Assembly (NCBI RefSeq): GCF_013407925.2
Contig: NZ_CP060201.1
Span: forward strand, 5,503,001-5,567,000
Source: Pseudomonas protegens
GTDB lineage: Bacteria; Pseudomonadota; Gammaproteobacteria; Pseudomonadales; Pseudomonadaceae
DNA length: 64,000 bases
Direction: 5' to 3'
Shown: one piece after another, positions 21,240-48,833 of the stretch
Position numbering within the stretch: position 1 is the first letter of the stretch
Layout: each line of letters begins with the position of its first letter
The notes under the pieces: generated by a model
Told to the model about the DNA's origin: nothing
What the model saw: only the letters and a program-made list of their open reading frames with translations
Databases searched by the model: none
Program-made: the position numbers and the translations under genes

Positions 21240-21353
21240 TCGCTTTCTTTTGTAAGGCAAATCCGAGAAACTGCCGGCCGCTTGAATGCGCCGGGTGAGC
21301 GGGCTAGGGTGCTGGAGCCATCGCCCAATCGATGGCTCGGATGTGCAAGTCCG
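21240..21353 (+). promoter_or_regulatory. Conserved promoter block A, copy 1
   Basis: This 114-base block is nearly identical to 42741-42854. It contains a sigma70-like pair, TTGAAT (21282-21287) and TAGGGT (21305-21310), spaced 17 bases. A 9-bp hairpin GAGCCATCG / CGATGGCTC (21315-21323 with 21330-21338) follows at the expected transcript start, then CGGA-TGTGCAAG-TCCG. The promoter call is inferred. Confidence 0.6.
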
Positions 21354-21418
21354 GTCATGTCGGCGCATCGTTGTCAAAAGCAGTTTCCGGGCTTTCTTGC
21401 CCTTCGTTTCTGCGTTAT

Positions 21419-21523
21419 GGCAGCCGTGCGTGGGAGACTTTCGAGTCTGCCGGGTTCCGATATGCCCGGTCTTGCACACCTGCGCACGGCTGCCACCTTA
21501 TTCGTGTGCAAGCGAACGGTGGC
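21419..21523 (+). promoter_or_regulatory. Structured 5' leader, block B copy 1 (candidate cis-acting RNA)
   Basis: Helix P1 is 12 bp (GGCAGCCGTGCG at 21419-21430 with CGCACGGCTGCC at 21483-21494). Inside it are P2, AGACT-TTCG-AGTCT (21435-21448), and P3, CCGGG/CCCGG (21450-21454, 21465-21469), then CTTGCACA (21471-21478). Downstream is TTCG-TGTGCAAG-CGAA (21501-21516), whose loop is the exact complement of CTTGCACA. GCCACC/GGTGGC (21492-21497, 21518-21523) overlaps P1 and offers a competing helix. The second copy conserves all of these apart from single mismatches in the last two helices. No named RNA family was recognised. Confidence 0.65.
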
Positions 21524-21555
21524 GGCTCCCATGAGTTTCATATCGGAGTTTGACC

Positions 21556-21855
21556 ATGAAAAAGATTGTCCCCGATCCCCCCACGTCCTATCGCGATCCC
21601 CAACTCAAGGCCGCCAACGCCACCCTGCGCGTGGCTCTGGCCCGGCAACCACAGGACCCGGCGCTGTTCCAGCGCAACACCCAGGCCAAAGCCGTTACAC
21701 CCGACTCGCTGTTCAGCGTGCGCGAAGGCGTCAGCGCTGAAGAGGCGCTGGTGCATGTGGCGTTGTTGCTCAAATGCGCCGAGGAGGTCTGCGATGAAAT
21801 CACCCAGCAGGGCAGCGGCATCGAGCGCGGGCTGATCTGGTCCATGGTGCATTAG
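21556..21855 (+). CDS. DUF3077-like small protein, copy 1, apparently truncated by TAG
   Basis: This 99-residue product begins MKKIVPDPPTSYRDP and matches the paralogue at 43053 along its length (LFSVREGV, EEALVHVALLLKCAEEV, LIWSMVH). At 21853-21855 copy 1 has TAG where copy 2 has TCG. The frame then continues for 23 more sense codons (VEMARAVVEALLDARPQ...) to TGA at 21925, still resembling copy 2, so the TAG looks like a recent single-base change. The domain label is from memory of small Pseudomonas proteins; the function is unknown. A structured leader of about 300 bases precedes it. Confidence 0.75.
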   Translation: MKKIVPDPPTSYRDPQLKAANATLRVALARQPQDPALFQRNTQAKAVTPDSLFSVREGVSAEEALVHVALLLKCAEEVCDEITQQGSGIERGLIWSMVH

Positions 21856-42740: not shown

Positions 42741-42854
42741 TCGCTTTCTTTTGTAAGGCAAATCCGAGAAACTGCGGGCCGCTTGAATGCGCCTGGTGGG
42801 CGGGCTAGGGTGCCTGGGCCATCGCCAAATCGATGGCTCGGATGTGCAAGTCCG
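42741..42854 (+). promoter_or_regulatory. Conserved promoter block A, copy 2
   Basis: This block is nearly identical to 21240-21353, with the same TTGAAT/TAGGGT promoter-like pair. The 5' hairpin is GGGCCATCG/CGATGGCTC, where one A-to-G change keeps a G-U pair. It ends in CGGA-TGTGCAAG-TCCG (loop 42843-42850). Confidence 0.6.
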
Positions 42855-42916
42855 AACTCTGCAAAGGCGCACAAGCGATCAGCACTGATTGATCGTTTTC
42901 ATGTCCGCTGCGTTAT

Positions 42917-43023
42917 GGCGGCCGTGCGTGGGAGATCTTCGGATCTGCCGGGTGTCCTTGCAGACTCGGTCTTGCACACCTGCGTACGGCTGCCACCTTA
43001 TTCGTGTGCAAGCGATCGGTGTC
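42917..43023 (+). promoter_or_regulatory. Structured 5' leader, block B copy 2 (candidate cis-acting RNA)
   Basis: P1 is GGCGGCCGTGCG (42917-42928) with CGTACGGCTGCC (42983-42994); both differences from copy 1 keep G-U pairs. P2 is AGATC-TTCG-GATCT (42933-42946), with two compensatory pair changes relative to copy 1. CTTGCACA is at 42971-42978 and the second TGTGCAAG loop at 43005-43012. A two-base length difference from copy 1 shifts every reading frame while the helices stay intact. Confidence 0.65.
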
Positions 43024-43052
43024 GGCTCCTTTTATCTGCAAGGAGTTTGACC

Positions 43053-43442
43053 ATGAAAAAGATCGTTCCCGATCCACCGACTTCCTATCGTGATCCCCAG
43101 CTCAAGGCCGCCAATGCGTCCTTGCGTGAAGCGTTGGCCCGGCATCCATTGGACCCTGCGACGTTCCAGTTCAAGACCACGGCCCAGGCCGTTGCACCCG
43201 ACTCGCTGTTCAGCGTGCGCCCGGGCGTGGGCGTCGAGGAGGCGCTGGTGCATGTGGCGTTGCTGCTTAAATGCGCCGAGGAGGTCAGTGATGAAATCAC
43301 CCGCCAGGGTAGTGGCCTGGAGACCGGGTTGATCTGGTCCATGGTGCATTCGGTGGAGATGGCGCGGGCGGTGGTGGAGGCATTGCTCGATGGTGCTCCG
43401 AGAGATCCTGTTGGCCTGGGTTCTCCGGCGTTGTTGGAGTAG
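43053..43442 (+). CDS. DUF3077-like small protein, copy 2 (full length)
   Basis: The 129-residue protein starts at the ATG after AAGGAG. A continuous upstream frame through the leader is dismissed because copy 1 does not conserve it. Features are a Pro-rich N-terminus (MKKIVPDPPTSYRDP), a central LFSVRPGVGVEEALVHVALLLKCAEEV segment and a C-terminal amphipathic helix (SMVHSVEMARAVVEALL). It is all soluble, with no enzyme motif. The domain label is from memory. It is a paralogue of the copy at 21556, with the same upstream RNA leader. The function is unknown. Confidence 0.75.
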   Translation: MKKIVPDPPTSYRDPQLKAANASLREALARHPLDPATFQFKTTAQAVAPDSLFSVRPGVGVEEALVHVALLLKCAEEVSDEITRQGSGLETGLIWSMVHSVEMARAVVEALLDGAPRDPVGLGSPALLE

Positions 43443-43730
43443 GCGGGGATGGGGGGCATATCCGTTGCTGCGGGTGTGGCCGCTGGCGGTTTCGCCCTTA
43501 CGGCGAGTGACTTTGAAAAGCCCAAAGTCACCAAAGGCTTCTGCCCCCGCATCCGGCGCCTCGCCTAGGCTCGGCGTTCCCTCGTTCCGGCATTGCTCCG
43601 GGGGCACGCCGCCCCAGGCCATCCATGGCCTGGGGCGGCTAGCTCGGCATCCTTGCCGAGCTGCCCCCTGCGCAATGCCTGCACTCGGCCTCCTGAAGGG
43701 GCAGCAAGATCAAAAGCCAAAGACTTAGCT
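43443..43730. repeat. Composite palindromic repeat element
   Basis: No gene is seen. Three strong hairpins occur in a row: GTGACTTTG/CAAAGTCAC (43507-43531), a 14-bp stem with loop TCCA (43608-43639) and AGCTCGGCA/TGCCGAGCT with loop TCCT (43641-43662). The layout resembles the BIME/REP-like elements found behind genes in fluorescent pseudomonads. Confidence 0.65.
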
Positions 43731-47576: not shown

Positions 47577-48833
47577 TCAGTCGCCGGCCAGTTGCACCTG
47601 GGCCATCTGCCGTTGCATCAGCACCTTGCCGTGGCGGATCGAGTACAGCGGCAAGCCCTGGCTGCGGAGCATTTCGTAGTCGCTGTCGGCCGAGAGGATC
47701 AGCAGGTTCGCCGGGCGGCCCTCCTCGATGCCGTAACCCTCGCCCAGGGCCAGGGCCTTGGCGCTGTTGTCGGTGACCAGGTCCAGAGCGCTTTGCAGGT
47801 TGCTGTAGCCGAGCATGTGGCAGATGTGCAGGCCGGCTTCGAGCACCCGCAGGATGTTGCCGTTACCCAGGGGGTACCAGGGATCGACGATCGAGTCCTG
47901 GCCGAAGCAGACGTTCATCCCGGCATCCAGCAGCTCCTTGACCCGGGTCACGCCGCGGCGTTTCGGGAAGCTGTCGAAGCGCCCCTGCAGGTGAATGCTC
48001 TCGGTGGGGCAGGAGACGAAGCTGATGCCCGAATGCCCGAGCAGGCGAAACAGCTTGGCGCAGTAGGCGTTGTCGTAGGAGCCCATGGCGGTGGTGTGGC
48101 TGGCGCTGACCCGTGAGCCCATGTCGCGGCTGCGGGCTTCTTCGGCCAGCACTTCGAGAAAGCGCGAGTGCGGGTCGTCGGTTTCGTCGCAGTGCACGTC
48201 CACCAGGCAACCGGTGCGTTCGGCCAGGTCCATGAGGAATTTCACCGAACTCACGCCCTGGTCGCGGGTGTATTCGAAGTGCGGAATGCCGCCCACCACG
48301 TCGGCGCCCAGGCGGATGGCTTCCTCCATCAGTTCGCGACCGTTGCGGAACGATTCGATGCCCTCTTGAGGGAAGGCGACGATCTGCATATCGATCAGGT
48401 GCCCGGTCTGCTCGCGCACTTCGAGCATGGCCTTGAGGGCGGTGAGGTCGGGATCGGTGACGTCGACATGGGTGCGCACGTGCTGGATACCGTGGGCGGC
48501 CAGGGCGCGAATGGTCTTGTGGGCGCGGGTGCGGGTGTCTTCGGCGGTGATGCTGGCCTTGCGTTCGCCCCAGCATTCGATGCCTTCGAACAGGGTGCCG
48601 CTCATGTTCCAGCGCGGCTCGCCGGCGGTCAGGGTGGCGTCCAGGTGAATGTGCGGTTCGACGAAGGGCGGCACCACCAGGTTGCCAGCGGCATCCAGGT
48701 GTTCGGGGCCGAAGGCCGGCGCGGCGGTGGGAGCGTCCGGGCCTTGCAGGACAATGCGGGCGATGCGGCCGTTTTCCAGGTGCAGTTGGTGCAGACCTTC
48801 ACGGTGGCGCAGGCGGGCGTTGGTGATCAGCAT
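47577..48833 (-). CDS. codA: Cytosine deaminase
   Basis: The 418-residue amidohydrolase has the metal motif FVEPHIHLDAT near residue 60 and further ligands in HCDETDD and SASHTTAM, followed by GQDSIVDPWYPLGNGN. This set is characteristic of E. coli CodA, which deaminates cytosine to uracil and ammonia. The cytosine permease gene lies upstream in the same direction, separated by 181 bases containing a strong hairpin. It therefore belongs to a pyrimidine-salvage unit. Confidence 0.92.
   Translation of the reverse strand: MLITNARLRHREGLHQLHLENGRIARIVLQGPDAPTAAPAFGPEHLDAAGNLVVPPFVEPHIHLDATLTAGEPRWNMSGTLFEGIECWGERKASITAEDTRTRAHKTIRALAAHGIQHVRTHVDVTDPDLTALKAMLEVREQTGHLIDMQIVAFPQEGIESFRNGRELMEEAIRLGADVVGGIPHFEYTRDQGVSSVKFLMDLAERTGCLVDVHCDETDDPHSRFLEVLAEEARSRDMGSRVSASHTTAMGSYDNAYCAKLFRLLGHSGISFVSCPTESIHLQGRFDSFPKRRGVTRVKELLDAGMNVCFGQDSIVDPWYPLGNGNILRVLEAGLHICHMLGYSNLQSALDLVTDNSAKALALGEGYGIEEGRPANLLILSADSDYEMLRSQGLPLYSIRHGKVLMQRQMAQVQLAGD

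Follow-up and report, generated by a model that had tools for sequence, protein, structure and literature searches.

Two C4 antisense cassettes in the window

The window analyzed here, a stretch of 64,000 nucleotides of the Pseudomonas protegens genome (contig NZ_CP060201.1, positions 5,503,001 to 5,567,000), contains two small DUF6124/DUF3077-like genes that are preceded by similar leaders, as direct reading of the sequence at both places confirmed. At each locus, an upstream motif and a putative sigma70-like promoter are followed by two hairpins, a folded core and the ribosome-binding site of the gene (Table 1). The stretch from 21240 to 21555, originally treated as one leader, starts approximately 40 nucleotides upstream of the promoter -35 box and is therefore not one leader RNA.

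Table 1. Features of the two leaders and their genes, with positions counted from the first nucleotide of the window
Copy	Feature	Position	Strand	Basis or remark
1	Upstream motif TTGTAAGGCAAATCCGAGA	21250..21268	+	Common to other such loci
1	Putative sigma70-like promoter, TTGAAT-17-TAGGGT	21282..21310	+	By eye; kept in copy 2
1	c4-a1b1 (RF03163)	21304..21357	+	33.1 bits, gathering score 46.7, E 1.4e-6 in 601 nt
1	P0 hairpin core	21317-21336	+	Within RF03163 match
1	a1 hairpin (a1 21342-21349)	21338-21353	+	Within RF03163 match
1	b1, complementary to C4 P3 loop	21353..21366 (core 21356-21363)	+	Best own match; first of 27 both ways (also copy 2)
1	C4 antisense RNA	21413..21500	+	RF01695, 77.9 bits, E 1.6e-13
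1	C4 P1	21419-21430/21483-21494	+	
1	C4 P2	21435-21448	+	
1	C4 P3	21450-21469	+	
1	b' loop (in P3)	21455-21464	+	
1	a'	21471-21479	+	
1	a2, exact a' complement, 9 bp	21504..21512	+	Sequence
1	b2, overlaps Shine-Dalgarno, complement of b'	21539..21548	+	Sequence, pairing test
1	DUF6124/DUF3077-like gene, 99 aa, early TAG 21853-21855	21556..21855	+	Pfam matches below cut-off
2	Upstream motif	42751..42769	+	Sequence match
2	Putative sigma70-like promoter, TTGAAT-17-TAGGGT	42783..42811	+	By eye
2	P0 hairpin and a1 hairpin (a1 42843-42850), c4-a1b1-like	42816..42854	+	RF03163, 40.4 bits, L025:1395-1448
2	b1	42858..42867	+	Pairing test
2	Weak antiterminator-like hairpin (CGC-ACAA-GCG), overlapping hairpin, then TTTT	42868..42899	+	Looser scan only
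2	C4 antisense RNA	42911..43000	+	RF01695, 66 bits, E 1.4e-10
2	C4 P1	42917-42928/42983-42994	+	
2	C4 P2	42933-42946	+	
2	C4 P3	42948-42969	+	
2	b' (in P3)	42955-42964	+	
2	a'	42971-42979	+	
2	a2	43004..43012	+	Sequence
2	b2, overlaps Shine-Dalgarno	43035..43044	+	Sequence, pairing test
2	DUF3077/DUF6124-like gene, 129 aa, predicted helical hairpin	43053..43442	+	PF11275, 20.7 bits, cut-off 21
	TwoAYGGAY Rfam match	43602-43666	-	50.9 bits, cut-off 43

In an Rfam scan, the folded core matched C4 antisense RNA (RF01695) in both leaders, with scores of 77.9 and 66 bits against a cut-off of 45. The hairpin and the 12-bp helix that the earlier note had called P2 and P1 are P2 and P1 of C4, and its 5' hairpin corresponds to the initial hairpin of c4-a1b1 (RF03163), matches to which were found at both copies in a permissive scan, under the gathering score (33.1 and 40.4 versus 46.7 bits). 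No match to isrK (RF01394) was obtained at either copy in a covariance-model scan. The earlier note had read the leaders as an RNA family in its own right, a reading against which it would have counted a match to a known Rfam family. Since C4 matches both copies, we rejected a new family; what stood of this reading is a structured leader with real covariation that is repeated in genome and genus. A riboswitch was also considered, for which no support was seen; Rfam types C4 as an antisense RNA gene. The feature is real, well supported and of a known kind, a C4 cassette. As far as we could see, what is new here is how large the family is in the genus, its link with DUF3077/DUF6124-type genes and the fact that C4 matches the Shine-Dalgarno sequence in a locus-private manner.

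Following the annotated phage P1 record, we refer to the P3 loop as b'. In copy 1, this loop contains the complement of CATATCGGA, which overlaps the Shine-Dalgarno sequence of the gene, and in copy 2 it is complementary to TCTGCAAGGA. The two copies share one a' sequence, CTTGCACAC, whose pairing partners are GTGTGCAAG (a2, downstream) and TGTGCAAG (a1, upstream). By sequence, then, a' and b' are complementary to a2 and b2, with b2 at the ribosome-binding site, as is characteristic of C4. The TTAT-GG context that surrounds the annotated start of C4 in P1 is also kept.

Further upstream is TTGTARGSNNNNTCCGNGA, which in copy 1 ends 13 bp before the -35 box. It occurs 12 times without a mismatch in the genome: 10 of these sites precede C4 loci, one precedes a C4-less DUF6124 gene (locus L131) and one a cut C4 locus (L132). 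When up to one mismatch was allowed, 18 matches were found, versus 19 for a reversed-pattern control. Possibly, this element is the binding site of a regulator shared by these loci.

Helices P1 and P2 covary

Hairpin P2 reads AGACT-TTCG-AGTCT in copy 1 and AGATC-TTCG-GATCT in copy 2, which bears out the two compensatory pair changes reported before. In the 12-bp helix P1, the two differing positions do keep G-U pairs (A-U to G-U and G-C to G-U), as had been claimed, but these changes are one-sided and not compensatory. The pairing of the 5' hairpin (21315-21338 and 42816-42839 at full extension) was indeed kept via an A-U to G-U change, and, with C4 measuring 88 nucleotides in copy 1 and 90 in copy 2, the two-base length difference between the copies was found as well.

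Support from a larger alignment was obtained with 40 C4 sequences (26 from this genome, 4 from congeners, 9 from the class outside the genus and that of phage P1), across which both helices hold. Counting was restricted to P1 and P2, because the alignment shifts the 3' arm of P3. Standard pairs made up 97.5% of these helices, double changes were seen in 15 of 17 pairs, and cells with changes on both sides numbered 139, versus 34 in shuffles. The corresponding covariation score was 0.703, versus 0.232 in shuffles (0/500) and at most 0.255 in slid controls. The covariation of P1 and P2 exceeds chance.

C4 tends to fit the Shine-Dalgarno region of its own gene

The strongest covariation, missed in the earlier note, links the P3 loop of C4 with the Shine-Dalgarno region. 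Across 27 loci of this genome, the ungapped score of b' against its own Shine-Dalgarno region averaged 20.76, versus 12.49 with other loci; the own target came first at 20 of the 27 loci (i.e., not at the remaining 7), and none of 100,000 permutations, which ignore relatedness among loci, reached the own mean. Similarly, with 80 loci from other genomes of the genus added (107 in total), the means were 22.67 and 13.42 (0/20,000 permutations), with the own target first at 68 loci, in the top three at 88 and not first at 39, in a sample that leans to strong C4s because the additional loci were taken from 84 first-listed matches of other genomes (2 at contig ends and 2 others were left out). Not included in the pairing counts were the decayed loci L027 and L028 and L030, which has no real C4. 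This loop-only scoring replaced an initial analysis of duplex energies over the whole P3 segment after the result of the latter, which was noisy, had been seen (own target first at 12/27; permutation, 0/100,000); the whole-P3 set of 27 loci contained L027 and not L029, and the loop-only set contained L029 and not L027.

The b' pairing has a median length of 11 positions and covers the Shine-Dalgarno-like purine core at 100 of the 107 loci, with as many as 80 different pairing words among them. Weaker signals, each of which nevertheless beat all 20,000 permutations, were found for b' with b1 (18.59 versus 14.52; own site first at 19/107), a' with a2 (17.50 versus 13.72; 10/107) and a' with a1 (19.09 versus 15.72; 17/107). 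In the close paralogues L013, L022, L024 and L025, which have nearly the same leader, b', b1 and b2 differ together, and each b' fits best, in both directions, with the b1 and the Shine-Dalgarno sequence of the same locus. Judged by these sequences, the evident C4 target is the ribosome-binding site on the same transcript. Cross-reactions (at least 18 points and at least 90% of the own score) were predicted for 15 of 702 non-own pairs in this genome, so insulation would be good, not complete.

Overlapping antiterminator- and terminator-like hairpins in a subset of loci

At many loci, b1 is directly followed by a short hairpin, the 3' arm of which is also the 5' arm of a next hairpin that precedes a U tract, all before C4. 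Examples are GGCGC-ACAG-GCGCC and GCGCC...GGCGCTTTTTTT at L001 and GCGG-ACAA-CCGC and CCGC...GCGGTATTTTTG in phage P1. A first scan found such pairs at 47 of 107 loci, versus 148 of 2140 shuffles. In a looser scan, devised after this result and with L039 left out (not located in the clipped locus), 53 of 107 loci in the genus (versus 11.4% of shuffles) and 10 of 17 loci outside it, including P1 (versus 9.8%), contained a pair. The arm sequences vary between P1, this genus and other genera; the overlap is constant. Of the two window copies, copy 1 had no such pair in either scan, whereas copy 2, which failed the first, was accepted by the looser scan on the basis of a weak hairpin. This looser scan was passed by 12 of the 27 loci of this genome.

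Pairing of b' with b1 would be expected to open the first hairpin and thereby to favor the terminator. We have kept this putative attenuation as a feature of a subset of loci. According to the accessible part of a report on IsrK (PMC4825925), the short IsrK RNA ends at a terminator and the readthrough mRNA, with alternative folds, is translationally inactive. The idea that a processed downstream RNA acts on termination, like the CI RNA of P4, was raised there, but a coexpression result did not bear it out, so attenuation has a precedent in that system and not a proof.

Spread in genome, genus and class

The 6.82-Mb single-contig genome contains 28 C4 loci above the cut-off, 24 of which have a c4-a1b1 match (E<=0.01; 11 above the gathering score). 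Matches to isrK were found at nine loci of this genome (E<=0.01), two of them (L001 and L003) above the cut-off. Among the 119 genomes of the genus, 109, this one included, have a C4 match (E<=1e-4) and 10 do not; 46 have at least 20 matches, with the highest counts being at least 33 per genome. The Pfam model PF11275 matched in 92 of the 119 (E<=1e-4). At the level of the class, C4 (E<=1e-7) was found in 12 of 229 genomes including this one, that is, in 11 of 228 others, one of which belongs to the same family.

Two further observations concern individual loci. First, L010 and L019 (3365-3367k) are tandem C4-DUF6124 cassettes, approximately 1 kb apart, with different b' loops. Second, besides the TwoAYGGAY match in the window, there are similar matches in the vicinity of L021, L024 and L029, of which L029 is a C4 locus below the cut-off.

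Genes downstream of the leaders

The copy 1 gene is cut short by an early in-frame TAG: its close paralogues (L022, L024 and L025) encode 118 to 129 aa, and the sequence therefore suggests that the gene may be decaying while its C4 pairing is retained. For the copy 2 protein, the named relatives of which are nearly all from Pseudomonas, an AlphaFold model (pLDDT 77.9) contains two long helices (residues 61-84 and 91-114), for which Foldseek returned no PDB match at E<=0.001.

The small DUF3077-like genes proposed earlier as targets are often, not always, what follows. At 67 of 109 loci, the downstream gene belongs to one of three home-made classes with profiles seeded from this genome's own loci: 28 DUF6124-like, 20 DUF3077 and 19 without a Pfam name (three members of this last class were scanned, with no Pfam match). 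At the other 42, including the two decayed loci of this genome, another or a decayed gene is found; among these are a Bro-N gene (L061, E 1.4e-11) and, by eye, several look-alikes. In genomes from outside the genus, Rha (L038), Bro-N (L043 and L047) and SymE-family (L046) genes follow C4. Given this range of genes, C4 seems to be a portable leader that became linked to genes of several kinds. The L046 gene (PF08845, E 7.4e-13) belongs to a toxin family described as type I toxin-antitoxin. At L001, L003 and L016, the Shine-Dalgarno sequence is followed by a short open reading frame (ORF), the end of which overlaps the start of the DUF3077 gene, an arrangement that recalls the overlapping annotated ORFs of icd-ant1 in P1.

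Relatives of DUF3077 and DUF6124 were found neither in viral contigs (two scans) nor in phage records (two tblastn searches). A DUF3077 protein did match phrog_36471 (E 1.7e-16), so a phage relative exists in that library.

Three DUF3077/DUF6124-type genes in this genome are without C4. At two of these, L131 (751k) and L134 (2322k), a c4-a1b1-like stretch is joined almost directly to an intact DUF6124-type gene, as if, judging by the arrangement, C4 had dropped out between b1 and b2, which resemble each other. At the third, L133, no C4-type leader was found for the DUF3077-like gene; a partial match to the PrrF sRNA (L133 1-80, minus strand, 64.8 bits with a gathering score of 90), clipped by the end of the stretch, lies just downstream of that gene. 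At L132, a cut C4 appears, by eye, to be fused to the gene end.

Relation to known C4-type systems

The annotated P1 record has the order a1 (48255-48261), b1 (48269-48276), c4 (48343-48419), a2 (48423-48429), b2 (48452-48459) and icd. The window copies resemble the C4 of P1 and P7 (RF01695 with RF03163) in fold, in the a1-b1-C4-a2-b2 order and in the location of b2 at the Shine-Dalgarno sequence, and the P1 leader carries an overlapping hairpin pair of the kind seen at about half of the genus loci. In contrast to P1 and P7, the cassettes described here are chromosomal, are present in 28 copies in this genome, have a different b' at most loci and mostly precede DUF3077/DUF6124-type genes rather than icd-ant. 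The downstream antirepressor of the P1-type c4-icd-ant operon is absent at the window copies, the gene there being DUF6124/DUF3077-like.

Salmonella prophage Gifsy-1 likewise has a terminated leader, IsrK (RF01394), before a processed RNA (STnc1160, probably C4-like) and a small ORF coupled to the next gene, as described in the accessible part of PMC4825925. It differs in its cargo, there given as a predicted antirepressor, and the window copies have no isrK match. For Acinetobacter baumannii, 21 C4-like Group 1 sRNAs with variable loops were reported, likewise many C4 copies in one chromosome, and their targets are left open in the part of that report available (PMC5320573); the a' loop is said to vary in that species, whereas here b' evidently targets the Shine-Dalgarno sequence of its own downstream gene. 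By description, the CI RNA of satellite phage P4 is also similar, being a processed antisense RNA between complementary sequences (seqA and seqC) that acts on transcription termination (as summarized in PMC4825925). C4 had already been predicted in Pseudomonadales, among others (stated in PMC5320573), and the available part of PMC2864571 lists it for Proteobacteria and phages, with c4-a1b1 as a separate motif. Among the matches listed in our literature search, the coverage of which mostly excludes subscription journals, no paper was, by title, on C4 in Pseudomonas, and one mentioned DUF3077.

A model for the cassettes and its alternatives

We consider it probable that both leaders are chromosomal C4 antisense cassettes that mediate self-encoded, locus-private translational repression, with attenuation in a subset of loci. 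Transcription would start just upstream of the P0 hairpin and run through a1, b1, C4, a2 and b2 into the small DUF6124/DUF3077-like gene. C4 is predicted to fold into P1, P2 and P3, with a' pairing to a2 and the P3 loop b' to b2; since b2 is the Shine-Dalgarno region of the gene, the latter pairing would block translation. Processing to approximately 77 nucleotides by RNase P is a trait of C4 antisense RNA, and a processed C4 could target further molecules of this mRNA in trans. With b' words that differ between loci, the cassettes in one cell would be largely insulated from each other. At approximately half of the loci, b'/b1 pairing would additionally break the antiterminator and favor the terminator before C4, a putative feedback on transcription.

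The alternative that survives best, which we regard as unlikely though far from negligible, is a purely cis-acting leader in which a'/a2 and b'/b2 pair within one molecule and form a lock on the ribosome-binding site that a signal opens, with no diffusible C4. All complementarity that we examined lies within one transcript, locus-private pairing would be expected here too, and the translationally inactive IsrK readthrough mRNA, with its alternative folds, would fit (PMC4825925, accessible part). However, C4 forms a self-contained domain closed by a P1 helix of its own and has kept the TTAT-GG context of the P1 C4 start, and far more reads were reported over C4 than upstream for the C4-like RNAs of A. 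baumannii (PMC5320573, available part).

Alternatively, chromosomal C4s might serve immunity by targeting incoming phage mRNAs with C4-controlled antirepressors, as the C4 of P1 and P7 does. This role, proposed among others for A. baumannii in the available part of PMC5320573, is in line with the Bro-N and Rha antirepressor-type genes that C4 precedes elsewhere and, at L061, in the genus, but it seems quite unlikely, since b' fits the Shine-Dalgarno sequence of the neighboring gene better than those of other loci and the main target therefore looks local. Improbable, too, is an antitoxin-like cassette in which C4 silences toxic small proteins, comparable to type I toxin-antitoxin systems: while the SymE-family gene at L046 and the annotation of the first C4-controlled gene of P1 as an inhibitor of cell division point in this direction, the protein is modeled as a simple helical hairpin to which no PDB structure was significantly similar, and intact C4-less DUF6124-type genes (L131 and L134) in the same genome show that such a gene can exist without C4, an argument against a strong toxin. 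Finally, although L027 and L028 are decayed, L132 is cut and copy 1 has an early stop, it is very improbable that the cassettes are decayed, functionless prophage remnants, with pairing kept while sequences differ, with C4 in 109 of 119 genus genomes (46 of them with at least 20 matches) and with no relative of the DUF3077 and DUF6124 queries in viral contigs or phage records.

A bolder reading of the antisense cassettes, which we regard as less likely than not, is that the whole genus co-opted the C4/IsrK switch of phages and expanded it to a network of dozens of genes per cell, gated by antisense RNA and insulated from one another, with a separate short code for each locus at b1, b' and b2. 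By combining attenuation with translational control, these switches would drive a fast-evolving superfamily of small helical hairpins largely without phage counterparts. For the pairing partner of chromosomal multicopy C4 RNAs, the question left open for A. baumannii in the available part of PMC5320573, the present data offer a testable answer: the ribosome-binding site of the following gene. The loci also provide dozens of natural RNA pairs that stay separate within one cell, useful for studies of antisense specificity, and they point at a large, little-studied protein superfamily.
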